NCBI GenBank assembly: GCA_003225295.1
Contig: QHYZ01000057.1
Span: forward strand, 1 to 64,000
Origin: Acidobacteriota bacterium
Lineage (GTDB): Bacteria; Acidobacteriota; Terriglobia; Acidiferrales; UBA7541
DNA length: 64,000 bases
Direction: 5' to 3'
Positions within the stretch are counted from its first letter, which is position 1; every line of letters begins with the position of its first letter. Shown here piece after piece: positions 49,100-59,443 of this stretch. The position numbers and the translations under genes are program-made. Under the pieces are notes generated by a model. It ran no database searches, was not told the DNA's origin, and saw only the letters and a program-made list of their open reading frames with translations.

Positions 49100-49723
49100 A
49101 TGAGGACGATCCGAATTGTCGCCGCCATTGTAATTCTCGCGGCACTTCCGCTGACAGCGGCTGCCAGGCGCAGGACAACACCGTTAGCATCGAAATCCGA
49201 AGCAAAGACTTACGCCGTGAGCAAGGCCTATACGATGCTGTCCTTTACAGCGACGAAATGGATGGTCTTCAAAGAAGAAGGATTGTTTCAGGAGTTCAGC
49301 GGGACGCTGACCTACAGTTCTCAAGATCCCGCCAAATGCAAGATCGACCTGACCGTGCAGGCCGCCAGTCTCGACACGCGCAATTCGACTCGCGACAAAG
49401 TTTTGCGTTCCGATGATTTCTTTGAGGTCCAGAAATACCCTACGCTGGCTTTTCGCAGCACGAGGGTAACCCGCACGGGGAAAGAAACCTACGCTATCGA
49501 GGGTGACTTGACCATTCACGGCGTTAGCAAGCGAATCACTGTGCCCGCAAAGGTGATTGGTGTTCGCGTGATGCCGGGAATCGGCGACTTTGCGGGATTC
49601 GAAACGACCTTCCACATTGACCGGCGTGAGTTCGGCGTTCTTGGTTCGCGCTGGAGTGGCAATACCTTGGCCGTCGATCCGACAGTCGTCCTTCACCTCA
49701 TCATCGGCGGCGTCCACGAGTAA
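49100..49723 (+). CDS. YceI-family exported protein
   Basis: A 207-residue protein with a signal peptide (about 1-22, ends PLTAAA) and a YceI lipocalin-like domain: SFTATKWMVFKEEGLFQEFSG with the split, DLTVQAASLDTRNSTRDK, FFEVQKYPTLAFRSTRV and EGDLTIHGVSKRITVP. YceI proteins bind isoprenoid lipids in the periplasm. It precedes kdsA on the same strand by about 110 bases but is probably independent of Kdo synthesis. Confidence 0.93.
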   Translation: MRTIRIVAAIVILAALPLTAAARRRTTPLASKSEAKTYAVSKAYTMLSFTATKWMVFKEEGLFQEFSGTLTYSSQDPAKCKIDLTVQAASLDTRNSTRDKVLRSDDFFEVQKYPTLAFRSTRVTRTGKETYAIEGDLTIHGVSKRITVPAKVIGVRVMPGIGDFAGFETTFHIDRREFGVLGSRWSGNTLAVDPTVVLHLIIGGVHE

Positions 49724-49835
49724 CGAGCACGGCTCACAAGCGTCGCCCTTCCCGTCCCCGCGGTGCTGGCAGGTCGCGGCCGCCCGTGCCGCTTTGGCAA
49801 CGCCTCCAGCCTCTGTGCTATCTTCAAAGCTCCTC

Positions 49836-50675
49836 ATGACGGCAGGTAAAGAAATCAGTCTGGGTTCCTTGCGCCTCGGTGGCGGAAATCCGTTGTTCCT
49901 GATTGCGGGGCCGTGCGTCATTGAAAGCGAAATACATGCTTTGGTGATGGCGGAGAAGGTTGCCAAGATCGCGGACGATGCGGGCATGCCGTATATCTTT
50001 AAGGCTTCCTACGACAAGGCCAACCGTTCCTCGATGAAAGGATTCCGGGGCCCAGGGATGAAGGAAGGCTTGCGGATTCTCGGCAAGATCAAGTCGGAAC
50101 TGAAACTGCCGATACTCACTGACATACACGATGCTTCCCAGGCAGGACCTGCGGCGGAAGTTTGCGACGTGCTCCAGATTCCCGCATTCCTGGCGCGTCA
50201 AACCGATCTGCTGCTTGCGGCTGGCAAGACCGGCCGGATCATCAACGTGAAGAAAGCGCAGTTTCTATCACCCTGGGATATGGGCAACGTCACGGAGAAA
50301 GTCGCCAGCACCGGAAACACAAAGATTATTCTCACCGAGCGTGGGTCTTCATTTGGATACCAGAATCTTGTCGTGGACATGCGCTCCTTCCCGATCATGC
50401 AACGAACCGGTTACCCGGTGGTATTTGATGTAACGCATGCCGTGCAGCTTCCGGCCGGACAAGGACACTCCAGCGGTGGCCAGCCGCAGTTTATTGAACC
50501 GCTGGCGCGCGCGGGCGTGGCGGCCGGCGTGGACGGCATTTTCTTGGAAACCCATGACAATCCCGCCAAAGCGCTTTCCGACGGACCCAACGCGCTGCCG
50601 CTTTCGGAACTCCTTAGCCTGCTGATGAAATTAAAGGGACTCAGCGCCGTGGTACGCCGCTGGAGTGCGAAATGA
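49836..50675 (+). CDS. kdsA: 2-dehydro-3-deoxyphosphooctonate aldolase (Kdo-8-P synthase)
   Basis: KdsA condenses PEP and arabinose 5-phosphate to Kdo 8-phosphate. The 279-residue protein has LFLIAGPCVIESE, FKASYDKANRSS, PILTDIHDASQA, LQIPAFLARQTDLL, GNTKIILTERGSSFGY and PVVFDVTHAVQLP. The ATG at 49836 matches family lengths; the open frame extends upstream to 49590 without similarity. It overlaps kdsD by 4 bases (ATGA at 50672-50675), so the two are translated together. Confidence 0.97.
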   Translation: MTAGKEISLGSLRLGGGNPLFLIAGPCVIESEIHALVMAEKVAKIADDAGMPYIFKASYDKANRSSMKGFRGPGMKEGLRILGKIKSELKLPILTDIHDASQAGPAAEVCDVLQIPAFLARQTDLLLAAGKTGRIINVKKAQFLSPWDMGNVTEKVASTGNTKIILTERGSSFGYQNLVVDMRSFPIMQRTGYPVVFDVTHAVQLPAGQGHSSGGQPQFIEPLARAGVAAGVDGIFLETHDNPAKALSDGPNALPLSELLSLLMKLKGLSAVVRRWSAK

Positions 50676-51631
50676 GCCTGGACACAGCAAGGCGCGTTCT
50701 GAGGATTGAAGCGCAAGCGATTCAGGATGTGCTGAGGCGGCTCGACGCCACGTTTGAAAAGGCGGTCGACGTGCTCTTTCAGTGCAAAGGGCGCGTTGTA
50801 GTCACCGGCATGGGCAAATCCGGATTGATTGGCCGGAAAATTTCCGCCACGTTATCGAGCACCGGCACTCCATCGTTCTTCCTGCACCCCGCCGAAGCTC
50901 TGCACGGCGACTTGGGGATGCTCGCGCGCGGCGACGCCATGCTGGCGGTTTCCTATGGCGGCGAGACGGAAGAGATCATAAGGCTGCTGGAAGCGCTGAA
51001 GCGACTGGAGATGCCGCTAGTGACGCTGACGGGAAAAATTCACTCGACGCTCGCCGAGGCGTGCGACGTGGCTCTGGACGTGAGCGTGAAGGAAGAGGCC
51101 TGCTCTTTGAATCTGGCGCCCACGGCAAGTACGACGGTAGCCATGGCGATGGGCGATGCGCTGGCGGTTTCCCTCCTCGAGCGGCGCAATTTTCGGCACG
51201 ATGATTTTGCGGCGCTGCATCCCGCTGGGCGCCTCGGCAAGAAGCTGCTTCGCGTGGAGCACCTGATGCATGCGGGAGAAGCGCTGCCGCGCGTTTCGAA
51301 AGACACGCCCATGCCCGACGTGTTTCACGAAATGTCCGCGAAGAAGCTGGGCATGACCACCGTGCTCGAAGCAGACGGCCGCCTGGCCGGAATTTTGACC
51401 GACGGAGACTTGCGCCGCTTGATGGAGAAGCACCGCGGAGCAGTCCTCGAGATGCGCGCGGCGGAGGGCATGACCAAGAATCCGCACACGATAGGGCCAC
51501 ACGTACTGGCCAGCGAAGCCTTGAACTTGATGGAAAAAAGAAAGATTACGTCAGTTGTGGTGGTGGATGAGGCCAAAGGCGTGCTGGGGGTGGTGCATCT
51601 GCACGACTTGTGGACCCTGGAGCTGATGTAA
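50672..51631 (+). CDS. kdsD: Arabinose 5-phosphate isomerase (SIS and CBS domains)
   Basis: KdsD makes arabinose 5-phosphate from ribulose 5-phosphate, feeding KdsA. The 319-residue protein has a SIS domain with VVVTGMGKSGLIGRKIS and DAMLAVSYGGETEEI, then two CBS domains (about 205-318) with LGMTTVLEADGRLAGILTDG (broken here) and ITSVVVVDEAKGVLGVVHLHD. It starts inside the kdsA stop and is followed by a 305-base gap before kdsC. Confidence 0.96.
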   Translation: MSLDTARRVLRIEAQAIQDVLRRLDATFEKAVDVLFQCKGRVVVTGMGKSGLIGRKISATLSSTGTPSFFLHPAEALHGDLGMLARGDAMLAVSYGGETEEIIRLLEALKRLEMPLVTLTGKIHSTLAEACDVALDVSVKEEACSLNLAPTASTTVAMAMGDALAVSLLERRNFRHDDFAALHPAGRLGKKLLRVEHLMHAGEALPRVSKDTPMPDVFHEMSAKKLGMTTVLEADGRLAGILTDGDLRRLMEKHRGAVLEMRAAEGMTKNPHTIGPHVLASEALNLMEKRKITSVVVVDEAKGVLGVVHLHDLWTLELM

Positions 51632-51936
51632 TGTTTTGTACGGCAAATTATCTCGTAATGCTTTCTGCGTCTGAGAGTTTTCGCTCCGACATAAAAGCGC
51701 GCCGTCGTTGGGCGTTAGCCCCTGGGGAAAATGCTTTGCACCGAAGCATTTGTGAGGTGATTTATGACATTTGAAGAAGACTCCCAGGAGACCGCGGGCA
51801 TGTAGCACGTGTAGGGGCTGGCTTGCCTGGGCCGCGCCGTGCGCACTTTTGCAGAATCATTCGAGGACATCACCAACTCTGGCCTAGAGACGCGCGGAGC
51901 GCAGAGGAAGACGCAAGAAATAACAAGGAGAAAGCA
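51632..51936. other. Intergenic region between kdsD and kdsC with palindromes
   Basis: 305 bases. It contains GGGC-GTTA-GCCC (near 51705-51716) and the larger palindrome at 51729-51751, which look like dispersed extragenic repeats. No gene is supported upstream of the kdsC TTG. Confidence 0.5.
51729..51751. repeat. Intergenic palindrome between kdsD and kdsC
   Basis: AAATGCTT (51729-51736) and AAGCATTT (51744-51751) are perfect inverted repeats around TGCACCG. Together with the GGGC/GCCC hairpin just before it this forms a composite palindromic element. Confidence 0.5.
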
Positions 51937-52497
51937 TTGGCTAAGCGAGGAAAGACAATTCCGGGAAAACTGGCGAAGCGAGCGAAGCAGATTCTCGTAG
52001 TGCTGATGGACGTGGACGGAACACTGACCGATGGCAGCGTGACGTTACTGTCGCAGTCGGATGGTTCGGCTCTCGAATGCAAGACGTTTGACGCCCACGA
52101 CGGCCAGGGCCTCACGCTTGCCGTCACCGCCGGGTTGCGGACGGGCGTCATTACCGGACGCGGCAGCGCGGCTCTGCGCAGACGGTGTAAAGAGCTGGAC
52201 ATCGAGTTTGTCTACGAGAAGCAGGGCCACAAGGTGGCCGCTTACGAAGACGTCCTGCGGAAAACCGGCGCCAAGGAATCGGAAGTCGCCTTTCTCGGCG
52301 ATGACCTGCCGGACTTGACGCTCATGAAGCGGGTAGGACTGGCCGTCGCCGTTCACAACGCCACCCCGGAAGTCCGCCGGACCGCCCACTACACCACCAA
52401 AGCCGATGGCGGCAAAGGTGCCGCACGCGAACTCGTCGAGATCATCCTCAAGTCCAAAGGCATCTGGGAAGAAATGATCGACAAAGCCCGGGCCTGA
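51937..52497 (+). CDS. kdsC: 3-deoxy-D-manno-octulosonate 8-phosphate phosphatase
   Basis: KdsC removes the phosphate from Kdo 8-phosphate. The 186-residue HAD-family protein has LMDVDGTLTDGSVTL, GVITGRGSAALRRR, KVAAYEDVLRKTG and VAFLGDDLPDLTLMKRVG, in the order of the family. The start is TTG at 51937-51939 with AAGGAG six to seven bases upstream; the open frame reaches back to 51823 but without similarity. It completes a kdsA-kdsD-kdsC set. Confidence 0.93.
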   Translation: MAKRGKTIPGKLAKRAKQILVVLMDVDGTLTDGSVTLLSQSDGSALECKTFDAHDGQGLTLAVTAGLRTGVITGRGSAALRRRCKELDIEFVYEKQGHKVAAYEDVLRKTGAKESEVAFLGDDLPDLTLMKRVGLAVAVHNATPEVRRTAHYTTKADGGKGAARELVEIILKSKGIWEEMIDKARA

Positions 52498-52742: not shown

Positions 52743-53297
52743 ATGCTCCACGCATGGCACGACGTTTCTCCCGGCCACGACCTCCCGCGGGATTTTCAAG
52801 CGGTGATCGAGATCCCGCTGGGCTCCAACGTGAAATACGAGTTGGACAAGGCTAGCGGGCTACTGAAAGTGGATCGCATCATCCATTCGGCAGTATTCTA
52901 TCCCGCAAATTATGGGTTTATCCCGCAGACGTATGCCGAAGATAATGATCCCCTCGATGTGCTGGTATTGTGTCAGGAGCCGGTACAGCCGCTGGCGCTC
53001 ATCAAAGCGCGGGCCATTGGGTTGATGACCATGGTCGATACCGGGGCCAGCGACGACAAGGTCATCGCCGTCGCGACGAACGATCCGGAGTTCAACAGCT
53101 ACGTTGAGGCGAACGAATTGCCACCGCACCGCTTGCTTGTTCTGAGGCGTTTTTTCCAGGACTATAAGCAACTGGAAGGCAAGCAGGTCCAGGTAGATGA
53201 CATCCGTCCGGCGCACGCGGCAGTCAAGGTTATCGAGAATGCGCTGGCGCGTTACAGGGACCAAAGAAACACACTTCGCGCAAAGGACCACCTCTAA
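52743..53297 (+). CDS. ppa: Inorganic pyrophosphatase (family I)
   Basis: This soluble enzyme hydrolyses pyrophosphate, driving biosynthesis. The 184-residue protein has the N-terminal AVIEIPLGSNVKYELDK, FYPANYGFIPQTYAEDNDPLD (the metal-binding Asp cluster in EDNDPLDVLVL) and KARAIGLMTMVDTGASDDKV. The length is typical of family I enzymes. It is followed, on the same strand, by the selenoprotein after 140 bases; a T-rich stretch (53392-53400) in between may end its transcript. Confidence 0.96.
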   Translation: MLHAWHDVSPGHDLPRDFQAVIEIPLGSNVKYELDKASGLLKVDRIIHSAVFYPANYGFIPQTYAEDNDPLDVLVLCQEPVQPLALIKARAIGLMTMVDTGASDDKVIAVATNDPEFNSYVEANELPPHRLLVLRRFFQDYKQLEGKQVQVDDIRPAHAAVKVIENALARYRDQRNTLRAKDHL

Positions 53298-53437: not shown

Positions 53438-54169
53438 ATGAATCGCTTCTGGAGGTGGGTGGCGGGAATTTTGGGCGTGCTGTTCCTTGCTGCCTTTGCT
53501 GTGTTGTCCTTCATCGCGGGAAGTCCGAAGGACGCGTACGGCATGGTGCGGTACGCGCTGCCGCACATGCATCGCGGCACGCTCAAAGTGGGCAGCGATG
53601 CGCCGGACGCACGGATTGTCGCGCTGGATGGCGTCAGCCGCTTCCACATCCGAGAGCGAACCCATGAGCGGCCGCTCGTGCTGGTGTTTGGGAGTTTCAC
53701 TTGACCGCCGTTTCGCCGCCAGGTGGGCGACATCGTTCAGATTTATGAAGACTACCAAGGGCGAGCAGATTTCTTGACCGTTTACGTTCGCGAAGCTCAT
53801 CCCACCGATGAATGGCAGATGAAATCCAACGTGAAGGACGATGTCTGTTACGCGCAGCCGAAAACACTGGCGCAGCGCGTGGCTATTGCCAATGATTTTA
53901 CCAAGAGATTCAAGTTCCCTTTACCGTTCGGAATCGACGACATGAGCAACGCCGCGAATGATGCGTATGCTGCATGGCCGGAGCGGATTTACATTATTGA
54001 TGAAAGCGGTCGTATCGCCTACCGCGGCGGGATGGGCCCGTTCAACTACAAGCCGGAAGAAGCCCGGGAATGGCTCGCCGCCCGTTATGGGGCGGTGAAA
54101 CACGACGCGCCGAAATCGCCAGCAGATGAGGCGCCGCCGAGGCCTCGCCCAGCCGCTCCGGCGAAATGA
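53438..54169 (+). CDS. Deiodinase-like selenoprotein with in-frame UGA
   Basis: Read through one in-frame TGA (53702-53704, residue 89) the frame encodes 243 residues. An N-terminal membrane helix (about 7-28) is followed by a thioredoxin-fold domain. The active site reads VFGSFT-U-PPFRRQVGD, matching the GSCT-Sec-PPF motif of iodothyronine deiodinases, and further family blocks lie after the TGA in the same frame: VYVREAHPTDEW (Glu119, His121) and GGMGPFNYKPEEAREWL near the C-terminus. A SECIS-like hairpin starts about 9 bases after the TGA. The ATG has GGAG upstream, and the stop overlaps the next gene by 4 bases. Whether it acts on iodinated compounds is unknown; a redox role with thiols is equally possible. 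selA, selB and selC are not in the window. Confidence 0.9.
53705..53730 (+). promoter_or_regulatory. SECIS-like hairpin downstream of the UGA
   Basis: TCGC (53713-53716) and CC (53719-53720) can pair with GG (53725-53726) and GCGA (53727-53730), leaving a 2-base bulge and the apical loop AGGT. The loop begins 16 bases after the UGA. In the E. coli fdhF SECIS an AGGUCU loop begins about 17 bases after its UGA, so position and loop both fit a SelB-binding element. Confidence 0.6.
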
Positions 54170-54975
54170 CCCAGCCCGTGAAACGGAAAACCAGCAGCAA
54201 GAAACGGGAAGCCGGCCCGCTTAAAAGAGTGGGGTTGGCGCGGGCGCTCTCGAAACTCGGCTATTGCTCCCGATCCCGCGCTGCCGAGCTGATTGCTGCC
54301 GGGCAGGTGAAATGGAATGGAGCGGTGCGCCGCGATCCGCAAACGCCGGTGCACCTCGGAAGGGACCGGATCGAAATCGACGGGCAGCCGTTAGCACCTA
54401 GTTCCAAAATTTATCTTGCTCTCAACAAACCTCGCGGCGTAGTGACCACCGCGGCAGACGAAAAAAGCCGGGAGACCGTGTACGCGTATTTGCCGGAGGG
54501 CCTGCCATGGATTGCGCCGGTCGGCCGGCTCGACAAAGCCAGCGAAGGATTACTGCTTCTTACGAATGATTCGGAATGGGCGGCCCGCATTACCGCACCG
54601 GAGACCCATCTCGATAAGACGTACCACGTGCAAATTCGGGCCATTGCCGATGAAGCGCTGGTGCAGGCATTGCGAAGCGGAATCCGCGCCAAGGATGGCG
54701 AATTGCTGTGCTTGAAAAAAGTCTGCATTCTTCGCCATGGCGAACGTTATTCGTGGCTCGAAATTGTGCTGGAAGAAGGCAAGAACCGGCACATCAGGCG
54801 AATGCTCGAAGCGCTGAAAATAGAAGTGCGCCGGCTCGTGCGTGTGGCCATCGGGCCGCTGGCGCTGGGCGAACTTCCGAAGGGCGGAACTCGTCCGCTG
54901 GAACAGCAAGAGAAGCAGGAGTTGGATCGCGCCATGCGTGCGCCGAACCGCGAACCCGCTTCTTCTGCTCGGTAG
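54166..54975 (+). CDS. RsuA/RluB-family rRNA pseudouridine synthase
   Basis: A 269-residue enzyme isomerising uridine in ribosomal RNA. It has an S4 RNA-binding domain (VGLARALSKLGYCSRSRAAEL, IAAGQVKWNG) and a catalytic domain with the aspartate in VGRLDKASEGLLLLTND, plus KTYHVQI and LEEGKNRHIRRMLEAL. The N-terminus carries a basic lead (KRKTSSKKREAG). It starts within the stop of the selenoprotein gene (ATGA), so the two are probably co-translated. RluB, RluE and RsuA act on different sites; the target here is uncertain. Confidence 0.94.
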   Translation: MTQPVKRKTSSKKREAGPLKRVGLARALSKLGYCSRSRAAELIAAGQVKWNGAVRRDPQTPVHLGRDRIEIDGQPLAPSSKIYLALNKPRGVVTTAADEKSRETVYAYLPEGLPWIAPVGRLDKASEGLLLLTNDSEWAARITAPETHLDKTYHVQIRAIADEALVQALRSGIRAKDGELLCLKKVCILRHGERYSWLEIVLEEGKNRHIRRMLEALKIEVRRLVRVAIGPLALGELPKGGTRPLEQQEKQELDRAMRAPNREPASSAR

Positions 54976-54981
54976 CCAGAC

Positions 54982-57198
54982 CTATTTGGATTTGTAAGTG
55001 AAGTTCACTTTTGTTTCTTCCTCGAGAACCAGCGGCCTGACAAAGTTGTACGAATTCCCTGCCCTGGGCACGTCCACGCGAACCGGCAGCACACCGGAAA
55101 TGCGTTGCTGGAGATTCGTGACGTTCGAGGAAGCGGCCATCTGCTGCTTCTCGGCGTTCTTACGAACGTCGCGCTGAAGACGTTCTAAATCAAGAGTCGA
55201 ATAGCCATTGAGTGGCCCGTTGGCGGCGGTAACTTCCACCAATTCCGAAGCCGCACCAAGGCTGAGAGCGAAATTGAACGGCACCGGCCCGCCGCCGTCA
55301 TAATTGATCTGACTTACAAGCTGCTTGAAGCCCAACGCATTGACTGCAATCTTGACTCGTCCCGTGGACAAGTTCGAAACGATCCAGCGACCCGAATTGT
55401 CTGTTACCACGGTTCGCTGCGCTCCCGTGTCGATCTGCGTCACCGTGACTTGCGCGTTGGGGACCATTGCTCCGGTGGGGTCTACAACGATTCCGCCTAG
55501 CTGTCCGGGAAGCAAAGACAACATGTCGAAGGAATATCCCCTGGCCATCCCGTTCAGAGCACCTTCCGCTCCGGAGACATCCAGCGAAGTAGCCGGCAAC
55601 AAATTCGCGGCGATGGCGTCGCCGCCAAAGTCTTTCACCTTGTACTGTTCCGGGAGAAAGACCTCCCATTCCAAGAGGTTGATCGGGACGTCCATCTTCG
55701 GAAGCACAAGGTCGGAGCCGCCTTTTTTCGCGAACGGCGCACCCGAATGCATGAATACGAACGAAACCGTGTAGGAGTCGACTGGCCGGAAGCCCGCGCG
55801 CAGCAAGGGCACTCGGTTGCCATCCGGCCCCTCAACGGGCTTCACTTTTTCCCCGGCAACTTCGGCGGACAGAATGCTCGCGCCTGCGGGCAAAGCCACT
55901 TTCAAGAACGGCTGCGCCTGATTTTTGATGGTGAGTCTTATTTCCGTTAACGAGCGGCCCTCGGTAGTCACGAGCGTAGTAACCACCGCACGTTCGGCGA
56001 CCGCCGCGATCACGCTGCTGTCCGGAAAGCGCGTCCACTCGAGCGCGAGGGCAGGTTTCTCGTTCGGCTGTTTGTGATAACGAAATGCCGCTTGCATGGG
56101 AGAGTGCGCGAGCGAACGCAGATACGGACTCATCTCCTTGAAATCTATACGCTTGAGGCCGCCGGCTTCCGTGGCGGTTAACTCGATCGTTCCGGCGCCC
56201 TCGACCAGAACTTCGCCGGTTTCGCGCTGGGCATCCTTGAAGCTGAGAAACGGGGCGTCTGCCCTGGTGGCGGAGATGGATTTCTCCATGGAGATCAGGA
56301 ACTCGTGGCTTCGCTGGGCTGGGCCGGTGACCTTCAGGGTCAAGACGCCGGATTCCACCTCGCTGGACTCCACCGATGCGCCGGTCGCGCCGGTGATTTC
56401 AAATCCTGTTGGGACTTCAATTTGAAATTGAGAGGGCTCGCCTTGCACAACAGTAATATCGGCGAGGGCGGCGATTCGAATGTCTGCTTCGCTGACGGAA
56501 ACGAGGGTCTCGACGTCAGAGAGAAAGCGCACCTCTTTGGGCACAACAGGGGTGGCCGTCTCCCGGGTTGTCCACCAGATGTTCGTGGGCTGTCCAGGGA
56601 CGAGCGTGGCTTCGATGGCAGTTTGCCCCTTCTCGGAGGACCTGGAGGTGATGAGGCCGAGGCTGATTCGAACGTTGGTGTGGTCGCCCGGAACAACAAG
56701 CGCGAGCCGCACACTACCCGCCGACGGCACGGGAAGACTAAAGGAAGCGCGCCCCGCTTCCATGGTCAAGGGAAGGCCGGCATCGAGGGTGACGGCGAAG
56801 TCCGCCGGTCCAACAAGAACAGCCGTGTGGGTTCCATTTTCTAGTGCGAGAGGCAGGCCCTTCCCTTCTTGGCGAGCGTCGAGAATAGCCATGCCCGTGG
56901 TCAGAGGAATCTTGGTTGCGCCCTTGTGAAGGATTTCTCCCTGCAATTGCACCGTGCCCTGCACCGATTCGTTGGCCACACGGAACTTCAGGTCGGCGCG
57001 CTTCATGGTGTACGGGACAGGCGGCGCATCTGGTTTCCTGGCAGGTTTGCCGGCCAGTTCGATCAGCCGGTTGTATTCGTCGAGAGGGAGCGTCACATTG
57101 CCAGCAGCCGGTACGGGAGGACGAGCGAGTTCGTCTGCTGCTGCAAAACAAGGGAGCACCAGCACCCATGCCACCATTATTGATAAGATCTTTTTCAC
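54982..57198 (-). CDS. Large exported protein with a carboxypeptidase-regulatory-like domain
   Basis: A 738-residue protein with a signal peptide (about 1-22, ends CFAAADE). A long beta-rich region (about 30-550) has no recognised domain; then GGIVVDPTGAMVPNAQVTVTQ to about 640 forms a carboxypeptidase-regulatory-like (Cna-B-type) domain as in many outer-membrane proteins. It shares its beginning (LPLDEYNRLIELAGKP, PPVPYTMKRADLKFRV) and end (SGVLPVRVDVPRAG) with the protein encoded just upstream, so the two are paralogues. Its start overlaps that gene's stop by 4 bases. Function unknown; probably outer-membrane or periplasmic. Confidence 0.88.
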   Translation of the reverse strand: MKKILSIMVAWVLVLPCFAAADELARPPVPAAGNVTLPLDEYNRLIELAGKPARKPDAPPVPYTMKRADLKFRVANESVQGTVQLQGEILHKGATKIPLTTGMAILDARQEGKGLPLALENGTHTAVLVGPADFAVTLDAGLPLTMEAGRASFSLPVPSAGSVRLALVVPGDHTNVRISLGLITSRSSEKGQTAIEATLVPGQPTNIWWTTRETATPVVPKEVRFLSDVETLVSVSEADIRIAALADITVVQGEPSQFQIEVPTGFEITGATGASVESSEVESGVLTLKVTGPAQRSHEFLISMEKSISATRADAPFLSFKDAQRETGEVLVEGAGTIELTATEAGGLKRIDFKEMSPYLRSLAHSPMQAAFRYHKQPNEKPALALEWTRFPDSSVIAAVAERAVVTTLVTTEGRSLTEIRLTIKNQAQPFLKVALPAGASILSAEVAGEKVKPVEGPDGNRVPLLRAGFRPVDSYTVSFVFMHSGAPFAKKGGSDLVLPKMDVPINLLEWEVFLPEQYKVKDFGGDAIAANLLPATSLDVSGAEGALNGMARGYSFDMLSLLPGQLGGIVVDPTGAMVPNAQVTVTQIDTGAQRTVVTDNSGRWIVSNLSTGRVKIAVNALGFKQLVSQINYDGGGPVPFNFALSLGAASELVEVTAANGPLNGYSTLDLERLQRDVRKNAEKQQMAASSNVTNLQQRISGVLPVRVDVPRAGNSYNFVRPLVLEEETKVNFTYKSK

Positions 57199-59195
57199 TT
57201 GCCACCTGCCTTTTTCTCGTGCTGATAACTTAATCCCGGGGAAGGAGCCTGATTTTCGCCGGTCAGTTCGGAGACCAAGTAGAGCGAAGGTCCAAATGCG
57301 GGGAACGCCACACGAATGGGGAGAATCCCAGCGCGCTTCCCTGCCAACGAGTCGGCCCTGAATTTATCGACAAGAGCCTGAGTTGCGACTTGAGAGCGCT
57401 TCGATTTTTGTTCGTCTTTGGAATCCATGTCCGGTGACGGTGGCAACGGAGTGACCGGGGAGGCCACGGCCGCAACTGTTCCTCCGACCCCGCCGCTGAA
57501 TTTCGCTGGAGGATTTAGCGCGGAGGAGATGGGATTTTCATAGGGTTCGGTTCGAAACGCTCCTGGTTCGGGCGTCACTCTAAAGAGCGGCGGATGATAA
57601 ACCAGGAGTCCCGTGCGCGAGACCGGCAGATCAAGAGCGGGCAACGCCAATTTGAACTGGCCCTTGTCATTCCAGGCGGCGCCGCGGCTCAAATAGACAA
57701 CCTCAACGGCGAACTCCGGCGCTTCTTCGCCGGCGCGCGCTTTATCGAGGGGCAAGAGGAGGCTGCCGTCCGGCGACTGCCCCGGCCGCACCGCTTTGCC
57801 CCCAAGGGAGGCGCTCCAAAGCGTGGCACCCGGCGGCAAGGTAATCTTCAGGAAGTTGCGCTGGTTATTTCGAACCGCGTAGCGCGCCTGGACCAGCGTT
57901 TTCCCTTCGCTGCTGACGAGCACCTGGTAGCGCGCTTCCGAGACGTTGGCCATCAGCACGGCTTGAGGCGTATAACGCGCCACGTTCAAGCTGAGCGACC
58001 GCGTCAATTTCCCGTCTCCGGTGCGAAACCGGAATGCCGCGAGCGAAGGAGACTGTCGATTCGAAACCATTTCGCCGAGGTCCGTCGCGTCCGCGCTATC
58101 AAGTCCTTCGGATTGGAGATCCTTGATTTCTCCGGCGCCGAGGACTTCCACCGCAACGCCGCCGTTTTCGCGCTCGGTGTTGAGAAGACGAAGAAGAGGA
58201 ATTTCGATCTGTCCTTCGCGGGGGCTGCGAGTTTCTCCGATCACGACGAACCGTGCGCTTTGCTCTACGACTTCCAGGAATGTAACCGAGAGCTCGTTGG
58301 CCTTTACCTCCCAGTCAGCCACCATTGCGCCGAGAACCTCGTTGATCGTTACTTTATCTGGGATCTCAATTCGCGCGACGCGTGCTGCGCCCTGCGTTAC
58401 CTCCAGATTTACTTCGGCGTTGATGGAGGTCGAGTCTTCGCCCAGCCCCAGGAGTTGCGTCAGCGATCCGCGCATTCGCAAAGGCTGCGTGGCGCGGTGG
58501 TCCTCGGTTTTCCTATGCCAAGCGAACGCCAGTGCTTCGTTTCCGCGTCCGTAAGCGATCCACTTGCTTTCCGCCGCGGATTCGGATTTCTCAGAGAGAA
58601 GGCCGCCCGTGAGTCTGACGTCCACGCCCGGGCGAGGAAGTTGCACGGACGCGCGCGTAACGCCGGACGCGGTCGAAGGCAGCGTAATACTCTCTTCGCC
58701 CGTCGACGAAGCCACGGGAATGGCGATATCAAGCAGCAAGACCGCCCGGCCCGAATGGGAAAGGAGTGCGGAGAGCTGGCTTCCCGCCTTGCCGCTGGTA
58801 TCGGACACGAGAGAAACAAGTTTGCCGTCGAGTCTTGCTTCGCGAACCAGCAGACCCGCCGGAACCGGGACGCGTACCCAGCCGTCCTTCAAGACATCGA
58901 CCGTCAGACTCGCACGGCCGGAGGCGAGTTCGCCATCAATGCGAAGCTCGTAGTCGACGCGCGTGAGCGTGGCTTCGACCGGAGGCGGCTCCGGGTCGCG
59001 TTCAACGGGATAAGCCTTCGCGTGCAGGGTCCGATATTCATCGACAGGTAAGACCACCCAGCCCGGAGAATGAGGGGTGGTCTGTCCAAAGGAGCGGGCC
59101 ACAGAAAGAAATACAAGTATGAGCAGATAAGCACAGCAGAGTGGCCATCCGGGCCTTTTTTTCAGCGGGAGAGTCGCGACAATTTGTGCGGGCAT
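57195..59195 (-). CDS. Large exported protein, paralogue of its downstream neighbour
   Basis: A 666-residue protein with an N-terminal membrane anchor or signal (LCCAYLLILVFLSVARSFGQ). Sequence blocks WVVLPVDEYRTLHAKAYP, PPVEATLTRVDYELRI and the C-terminal GILPIRVAFPAFGPSLYLV align with those of the 738-residue downstream protein, but it lacks the carboxypeptidase-like domain. The ATG at 59195 has GGAGG at the right distance; the frame stays open to 59312. It is the first gene of the pair. Function unknown. Confidence 0.85.
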   Translation of the reverse strand: MPAQIVATLPLKKRPGWPLCCAYLLILVFLSVARSFGQTTPHSPGWVVLPVDEYRTLHAKAYPVERDPEPPPVEATLTRVDYELRIDGELASGRASLTVDVLKDGWVRVPVPAGLLVREARLDGKLVSLVSDTSGKAGSQLSALLSHSGRAVLLLDIAIPVASSTGEESITLPSTASGVTRASVQLPRPGVDVRLTGGLLSEKSESAAESKWIAYGRGNEALAFAWHRKTEDHRATQPLRMRGSLTQLLGLGEDSTSINAEVNLEVTQGAARVARIEIPDKVTINEVLGAMVADWEVKANELSVTFLEVVEQSARFVVIGETRSPREGQIEIPLLRLLNTERENGGVAVEVLGAGEIKDLQSEGLDSADATDLGEMVSNRQSPSLAAFRFRTGDGKLTRSLSLNVARYTPQAVLMANVSEARYQVLVSSEGKTLVQARYAVRNNQRNFLKITLPPGATLWSASLGGKAVRPGQSPDGSLLLPLDKARAGEEAPEFAVEVVYLSRGAAWNDKGQFKLALPALDLPVSRTGLLVYHPPLFRVTPEPGAFRTEPYENPISSALNPPAKFSGGVGGTVAAVASPVTPLPPSPDMDSKDEQKSKRSQVATQALVDKFRADSLAGKRAGILPIRVAFPAFGPSLYLVSELTGENQAPSPGLSYQHEKKAGGK

Positions 59196-59443
59196 AGATG
59201 TAGCCTCCTCATCTTCAAGGTGGACCAACGAGTAAGTTCTGCTGGCGACCCGGGGACGGAGCGTGCTGTTGGGTGGATAGGATGGCGCGCTGGGCGAAGA
59301 TGGTTGTTCCATCGAGTGACTCCTTCAGAAAAAACGATCGAGCACGGCATACGACTGCCGGTACTCTGCGGTTAGAACGGCGAGTGGATTATTTCTTGCA
59401 GGGCTCGTCAGCGAGGTGGAACTCTAACGCCTGCAATTTCCCC

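Follow-up and report, generated by a model that had tools for sequence, protein, structure and literature searches.

Here, we describe a gene from an Acidobacteriota bacterium that very probably encodes one selenoprotein of the deiodinase-like family. It lies in a stretch of 64,000 nucleotides, in the following called the window, and its frame is interrupted by a UGA at codon 89 that is almost certainly read as selenocysteine. The first of these judgements covers the selenoprotein and its family, not each step of the mechanism proposed below. We read the UGA as selenocysteine because it is conserved as a coding position, is followed by a hairpin and occurs in a genome that holds the selenocysteine machinery. 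The gene is a well-supported addition to a known bacterial family, and its cysteine arrangement is the part that a specialist might not expect.

One reading frame interrupted by a TGA

The frame extends over 243 codons from an ATG at 53438 to a terminal TGA at 54167-54169 and is broken only once (Table 1). The product has 243 residues, and a GGAG is found 9 nt upstream of the start codon. The active-site motif GSFT-U-PPF surrounds codon 89, and the blocks AHPTDEW and GPFNY follow downstream. When the TGA is read through, the product matches the Pfam family T4_deiodinase (PF00837) over residues 49-214 with 145.5 bits, where the curated cut-off is 27. Each piece also matches PF00837 separately, the first with 20.1 bits, which is below the cut-off, and the second with 98.2 bits. 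In a mechanical list of open reading frames the gene appears as 53438-53704 and a GTG-started 53723-54169, and ordinary gene calling would cut it into two. The original prediction had described an otherwise continuous frame split by this TGA, with both halves in one family, the three motifs in the translation and two short proteins as the output of standard gene callers. Frame and coordinates match the sequence on all of these points, and the alignment of the full translation to Pfam, which the prediction had suggested as a check, runs through the TGA.

If the UGA were a true stop, the locus would yield two products, a membrane peptide of 88 residues and a protein of 148 residues that starts at a GTG. 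We consider this very unlikely. Mechanical open reading frames do exist for both pieces, and a truncated product is expected at low selenium, as it is from any selenoprotein gene. A true stop would, however, divide one fold at its active site and leave a downstream frame without a nucleophile, and it is at odds with the SECIS-like hairpin and with the tRNA-Sec, SelA, SelB and SelD described below. The preferred reading is a single selenoprotein gene.

The window contains eight further candidates for TGA-interrupted frames. Six of them were read through against Pfam, and in no case did the two sides of the TGA belong to a single family: one consists of two different genes that happen to be in frame, one of a thiamine-phosphate synthase with an unmatched leader, and four had no match.

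Table 1. Position of the selenoprotein gene, its parts and its direct neighbours in the window
Feature	Position	Strand	Basis
Deiodinase-like selenoprotein gene (very probable), 243 residues, TGA codon 89 as Sec	53438..54169	+	Frame, Pfam, homologues, PDB matches
In-frame TGA, almost certainly Sec89	53702..53704	+	Frame and conservation in homologues
Residues 3-27, predicted N-terminal helix and presumed membrane anchor	53444..53518	+	Helix from model; anchor and topology inferred from sequence
Deiodinase/thioredoxin-fold catalytic domain, residues 46-219	53573..54094	+	Pfam and predicted-structure comparison
Cys137, candidate resolving cysteine, in stretch matching the deiodinase-specific loop	53846..53848	+	Alignment; role inferred
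Stretch analysed for bacterial SECIS-like hairpin; core CGCC-AGGUG-GGCG, 4 bp, loop from 16 nt after the UGA	53705..53764	+	Comparative; single-sequence tests negative
Candidate SECIS hairpin core	53717..53729	+	Sequence and comparative fold
Inorganic pyrophosphatase, upstream neighbour	52743..53297	+	PF00719, 188.7 bits
S4-domain pseudouridine synthase (TIGR00093)	54166..54975	+	Start overlaps selenoprotein stop (ATGA 54166-54169)

Selenocysteine machinery and conservation of the UGA

The genome from which the window comes is 96% complete and contains all four parts of the machinery that the original prediction had proposed to look for. SelA was found with 574 bits, SelB with 359 bits over profile positions 1-578 of 581, SelD with 345 bits and tRNA-Sec, with the anticodon tca, with 68.7 bits (gathering score 47). 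The SelD of this genome (G000:C197:16214-17179, L023) is itself a likely selenoprotein with an in-frame TGA in VKAAG-U-AAKL.

The family was found in 57 of 151 related genomes, with 62 matches to PF00837. Three matches start beyond the Sec site (G018:C3, the second piece in G029, and G069), and the remaining 59 cross it. Exactly one TGA is present in 57 of these 59, while the other two have TGT (Cys). All 55 loci that were fetched and read have the TGA at exactly codon 89; the TGA matches of G005 and G029 were not among the 55. The match in G029, a genome of the same genus, comes in two pieces 10 bases apart (G029:C548:5714-6194), perhaps because of a frameshift or an assembly fault. Within the window's genus 32 of the 36 genomes searched carry the family.

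Named relatives number at least 531. In the best 80 of them, a choice that leans towards the query and includes many loci from the genomes of the first set, codon 89 is TGA in 76 and TGC in four. The TGA loci belong to Acidobacteria, Myxococcota, Planctomycetota, Verrucomicrobia, Armatimonadetes and Poribacteria. The nearest named relatives among the matches listed are metagenome-assembled Acidobacteria of subdivision gp2; the protein of the 'Candidatus Acidiferrum typicum' record (L119) is 71.186% identical to the query. A record titled Betaproteobacteria (L101, CAJCHZ010000056.1) is 72.881% identical to the query, as in the same-genus G006, and its title looks mislabelled. Homologues with Cys at residue 89, which the prediction had suggested to look for, use the same codon and have TGT in L056 and L057 and TGC in L108, L149, L161 and L163. 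The gene has a UGA in frame at a redox-active position where some homologues have Cys. The sequences behind these counts are related and hence not independent.

After the TGA, dN is 0.03-0.10 and dS at least 0.8 or saturated in seven of eight same-genus pairs. The eighth pair (L037) was compared ungapped and is out of register, apparently because of an insertion. SelA was detected in 55 of the 57 gene-bearing genomes and in 72 of the 94 others (Fisher p 0.001, only a guide since the genomes are related). The two gene-bearing genomes without SelA are 59% and 55% complete.

A nonsense mutation in a pseudogene, or a TGC or TGT misread in sequencing or assembly, has in our judgement a negligible probability as the origin of the TGA. 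The codons of the Cys homologues are one base away from TGA, but the TGA recurs at this codon in many assemblies and several phyla, neither TAA nor TAG was seen there in the 151-genome and 80-locus sets, dN stays far below dS behind it, and the hairpin 3' of it is conserved. The original prediction could have failed on a genome lacking the selenocysteine machinery or on homologues whose alignment ends at the UGA; the machinery is present and the alignments run straight through.

A SECIS-like hairpin behind the UGA

According to the bacterial SECIS model as described in PMC13188914, the loop lies 16-37 nt after the UGA, a G stands in one of the first two loop positions and the energy is at most -7.5 kcal/mol. 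The case for such an element is a comparative one, since the window's own copy is weak when taken alone and the stem of one same-genus locus is nearly lost. A loop-G hairpin of -4.5 kcal/mol or below was found in 103 of 105 distinct sequences, compared with 20.7 +/- 4.1 in synonymous controls (200 sets in which the codons were redrawn with the protein unchanged). At -7.5 kcal/mol or below the numbers were 74 of 105 and 5.9 +/- 2.2. The subset of 27 sequences that are less than 60% identical gave 26 hairpins of -4.5 kcal/mol or below against 5.6 +/- 1.8 in controls, and in a looser test for any 4-bp hairpin with a loop G all 105 sequences scored, against 55.9 +/- 4.6. The loop of the kept hairpin begins 16-21 nt after the UGA, and position and loop G agree with the model across the family.

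For counts with slid pairs we separated the 105 sequences into a main register of 90 and a second one of 15. In the main register 322 of the 360 cells for the four stem pairs are paired, compared with 139-201 when one arm is slid, and 80 of the 90 sequences have GGT as their loop. The two inner stem pairs alternate between G-C and C-G, which is covariation. This switch accompanies the residues after Sec, which are either Gln-Val-Gly or else Glu-Val-Pro or Ser-Val-Glu, and since stem and amino acids change together the RNA stem may constrain the protein residues behind Sec. The second register has its loop at 21 nt and pairs in 90 of 90 cells; its 15 sequences were chosen for pairing and this figure is not evidence.

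In the window itself the hairpin has 4 bp and -4.8 kcal/mol, and 515 of 2000 synonymous controls are just as stable. Its position, its loop G and its 4-bp stem agree with the published model. The energy misses the limit of -7.5 kcal/mol if that limit is a hairpin energy, whereas the published program computes energy in its own way; 31 of the 105 sequences, the window included, miss it. A single-sequence fold of the 60 nt around the window hairpin gave a z of 0.04 and a different best structure. The stem is degraded in the same-genus L035 (-0.1) and poor in L158 (-3.3). In the cell, SelB would bind the hairpin, which starts about 12 nt after the UGA, and would deliver Sec-tRNA. Taken together, machinery, codon conservation and the family-wide hairpin back the claim of the original prediction that the UGA is decoded as selenocysteine.

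Family and fold

The best sequence matches in the PDB are mouse DIO2 (9h48, E 6.1e-29) and mouse DIO3 (4tr3, E 1.2e-27), two of the animal deiodinases, which act on thyroid hormone. An AlphaFold2 model, built from an input alignment of 44 sequences with the window's own among them, has a mean pLDDT of 90.9. In VIA-align this model reaches Z 24.5 with DIO2 and 24.4 with DIO3 over 171 residues, and the next listed entry has Z 17.3. With a distance of 7 Z units to the next listed entry, the likeness goes beyond a mere thioredoxin core and is one to the deiodinase fold. The NCBIfam model NF038285 (deiodinase_rel) matched with 192 bits, below its cut-off of 250. The match covers positions 177-337 of its 347 and leaves its first half unaligned, and we do not count the protein as a member. 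The name deiodinase-like, which the original prediction had used, is correct for family and fold (PF00837, PDB matches, Z to DIO2 and DIO3). We use it in this sense, and do not file the protein as an iodothyronine deiodinase enzyme.

An unrooted quick tree, computed without bootstrap and with many weak forks, places the mouse DIO pair on a long branch away from all bacterial rows, so that no bacterial clade can be named as nearest kin.

Active site and cysteines

Residues were counted in 109 distinct bacterial proteins, obtained from 132 rows after 9 incomplete or duplicate loci had been excluded. The active-site Sec aligns with that of DIO3, and Glu119, His121 and Trp126 align with DIO3 Glu200, His202 and Trp207. 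Glu119 and His121 are present in all 109 proteins and Trp126 in 103, and Phe stands at position +3 from Sec in 108. In animal deiodinases the selenolate takes the iodine formally as I+, and the Glu, His and Trp near the deiodinase-specific loop have been proposed to serve in a proton relay or in substrate binding (PMC11592359, PMC9141512). The loop itself corresponds to residues 161-188 of mouse DIO2 and is described as specific to deiodinases (PMC11592359).

The cysteines are arranged differently. DIO1 carries a proximal Cys at position -2 from Sec, and the selenenyl-sulfide formed by this Cys is reduced by glutathione (PMC11592359, PMC9141512). This position is Phe87 in the window protein and Cys in only 2 of the 109 proteins. 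A distal Cys would be expected 69-76 residues after Sec; the aligned column 162 is Cys in none of the 109, and the window protein has no Cys after residue 137, while 6 of the 109 have a Cys at column 164, inside the distal-Cys span. Both mouse enzymes have a loop His that would correspond to DIO1 His174; the window protein has Pro141 there, and Pro is found in 100 of the 109.

Apart from these positions, the window protein has a single cysteine, Cys137, within the stretch that matches the deiodinase-specific loop. Cys137 is found in 47 of the 109 proteins and Cys154 in 53, and no protein has both. Of the nine with neither, four have Cys155 and five have none of the three. In the quick tree (101 rows, two mouse proteins included) the Cys137 and Cys154 types fall mostly into two groups. 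One Cys-for-Sec relative (L108, about 62% identical), a single case, lacks Cys137. Conservation and loop position would fit a role of Cys137 as resolving residue, to which we give an even chance, and at about even odds Cys137 and Cys154 would be two alternative resolving cysteines.

A second, more distant type of deiodinase-like selenoprotein has Cys154 and is about 28-46% identical to the window protein. It occurs at L060, L063 and L066 (genomes G021, G009 and G010) and at gp1 loci such as L131, and is spread over other acidobacterial lineages. Four genomes (G018, G021, G139 and G140) have two matches each, on different contigs.

In the AlphaFold2 model residues 3-27 are helical and are preceded by a positively charged start. 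The relative L071 begins with an apparent signal peptide, which fits an extracytoplasmic domain. Judged from these sequence features, the protein is probably membrane-anchored and extracytoplasmic. The protein would be a Sec redox enzyme that acts outside the cytoplasm through a Sec89-Cys137 intermediate, and it could work as follows. Residues 3-27 would hold the product in the inner membrane with the catalytic domain outside the cytoplasm, where Sec89 would attack an oxidised or halogenated substrate. Glu119, His121 and Trp126 would occupy the places of the animal residues proposed for proton relay or substrate binding. Cys137 would then take the part that the proximal Cys plays in DIO1 and DIO3 and form a selenenyl-sulfide with Sec89, to be reduced by an external thiol.

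Gene neighbourhood

The original prediction had called the position behind a pyrophosphatase gene and the coupling to a pseudouridine synthase gene an unusual setting. Both neighbours are there, but the setting is a recurrent one within the genus. We compared 26 loci of the window's type from the genus, not counting the window itself. The pyrophosphatase precedes the gene in 22 of them, the pseudouridine synthase follows it in 22, and 19 have both neighbours. None of the eight loci of this type from other genera of the family has both. The flanks compared were about 1.3-2.1 kb. The 26 exclude five further loci of the genus: L054, which is cut off upstream, and L059, L060, L063 and L066, which are of another type and lack the pyrophosphatase and pseudouridine synthase neighbours. 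As the setting is kept in the genus and in none of the eight loci outside, it says little about function.

The recurrent order in the genus is KdsA-KdsD-KdsC-like-pyrophosphatase-selenoprotein-pseudouridine synthase. In the window, genes for KDO-8-phosphate synthase, a KpsF/GutQ-type isomerase and a KdsC-type phosphatase stand in a row just upstream, at 49590-52497. Two large proteins are encoded on the minus strand further downstream, one with a carboxypeptidase regulatory-like domain (54982-57198) and one without a Pfam or NCBIfam match at E 0.001 (57195-59312).

Outside the genus, 62 flanking open reading frames at 16 loci were listed and eight of them were assigned by Pfam: SelB, acetamidase/formamidase, an AsmA-like protein, a sugar transporter, a histidine kinase, DUF58, cytochrome c554 and an ABC-2 permease. 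All eight belong to different families, so that no function follows from the neighbourhood. In the verrucomicrobial locus L144 the SelB gene lies upstream of the deiodinase-like gene on the same strand, with one opposite-strand open reading frame between them.

Possible function and comparison with known systems

Fold and core residues suggest that a substrate would be bound as in deiodinases, and the changed auxiliary residues together with the absence of thyroid hormone point to a peroxide, a disulfide or a small halogenated aromatic. As natural reaction, reduction of a peroxide or disulfide is a coin toss in our estimate, and reductive dehalogenation is rather doubtful. The selenoprotein reading is compatible with a peroxide- or disulfide-reducing selenoenzyme of the peroxiredoxin or thioredoxin type that is no dehalogenase, a reading to which we give an even chance. 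The thioredoxin/peroxiredoxin core is common (Z 15-17 to ResA, AhpE and Tpx entries), the proximal Cys, distal Cys and loop His of the animal enzymes are missing from the window protein, and a redox role was suggested for bacterial relatives in PMC1088965 on the ground that thyroid hormones are not expected in bacteria. On the other hand, the active site retains Sec, Pro, Glu119, His121 and Trp126, with no exception for Glu119 and His121 among the 109 proteins, and DIO2 and DIO3 stand clearly above the next listed entry in the structural comparison.

In its boldest form, which we think unlikely, the dehalogenase reading would make these proteins a large and little-studied branch of membrane-anchored, extracytoplasmic bacterial deiodinases that dehalogenate soil aromatics, with the selenium-rescuing Cys in the loop (Cys137) or, in a sister branch, in the following helix (Cys154). 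If so, Cys137 and Cys154 would be two solutions that were in no case seen together and that both differ from the animal one. The two alternative cysteine arrangements give a direct route to ask about re-reduction, substrate and bacterial role of deiodinase relatives.

The claim that bacterial deiodinase-like selenoproteins exist has been in print since 2005, when Zhang, Fomenko and Gladyshev described a family with four Sec and six Cys sequences from the Sargasso Sea (PMC1088965). Reviews of 2022 and 2026 list the motif of this bacterial family as UxxC, and the review of 2026 calls the functions of bacterial deiodinase-like and similar families largely uncharacterised. For Acidobacteria, four selenoproteins of three families were reported by Zhang 2006 and three selenoprotein genes in Occallatibacter riparius by deep-Sep 2025; in the accessible text of both the families are not named. 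The word deiodinase is absent from the accessible main text of these two papers, of a 2016 ISME paper and of the Porphyra Planctomycetes paper. In the open-access literature, supplements aside, we found no printed account of a deiodinase-like selenoprotein gene in Acidobacteria, and tabulated mentions may exist.

The window protein shares with the marine family of PMC1088965 the membership in PF00837, a Sec or Cys active site and a bacterial SECIS, which in the window's own copy is a candidate one. By description it is set apart by UPPF instead of UxxC, by its N-terminal helix and by its occurrence in soil acidobacteria. With NF038285 it shares the C-side profile, at a score below the cut-off. 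The thioredoxin-type core is common to the AhpE, Bcp and Tpx peroxiredoxins and the ResA thiol-disulfide oxidoreductase, but their listed alignments are shorter, with 10-20% identity, and the loop insertion is described as deiodinase-specific (PMC11592359).

The closest comparison is that with DIO1-3 (9h48, 4tr3). The catalytic-core fold, the Sec-Pro-Pro-Phe motif, the Glu/His/Trp residues and, as predicted for the window protein, a membrane region before the domain are alike, and UPPF is also the motif of mouse DIO2 and DIO3, in whose structures Sec is mutated to Cys. The window protein differs in having Phe87 at the place of the proximal Cys, which is likewise missing in DIO2 (PMC11592359), in lacking a distal Cys, and in having Pro141 in place of the loop His and Cys137 in the loop. 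In contrast to DIO1-3, the SECIS-like hairpin of the window gene lies inside the coding region.
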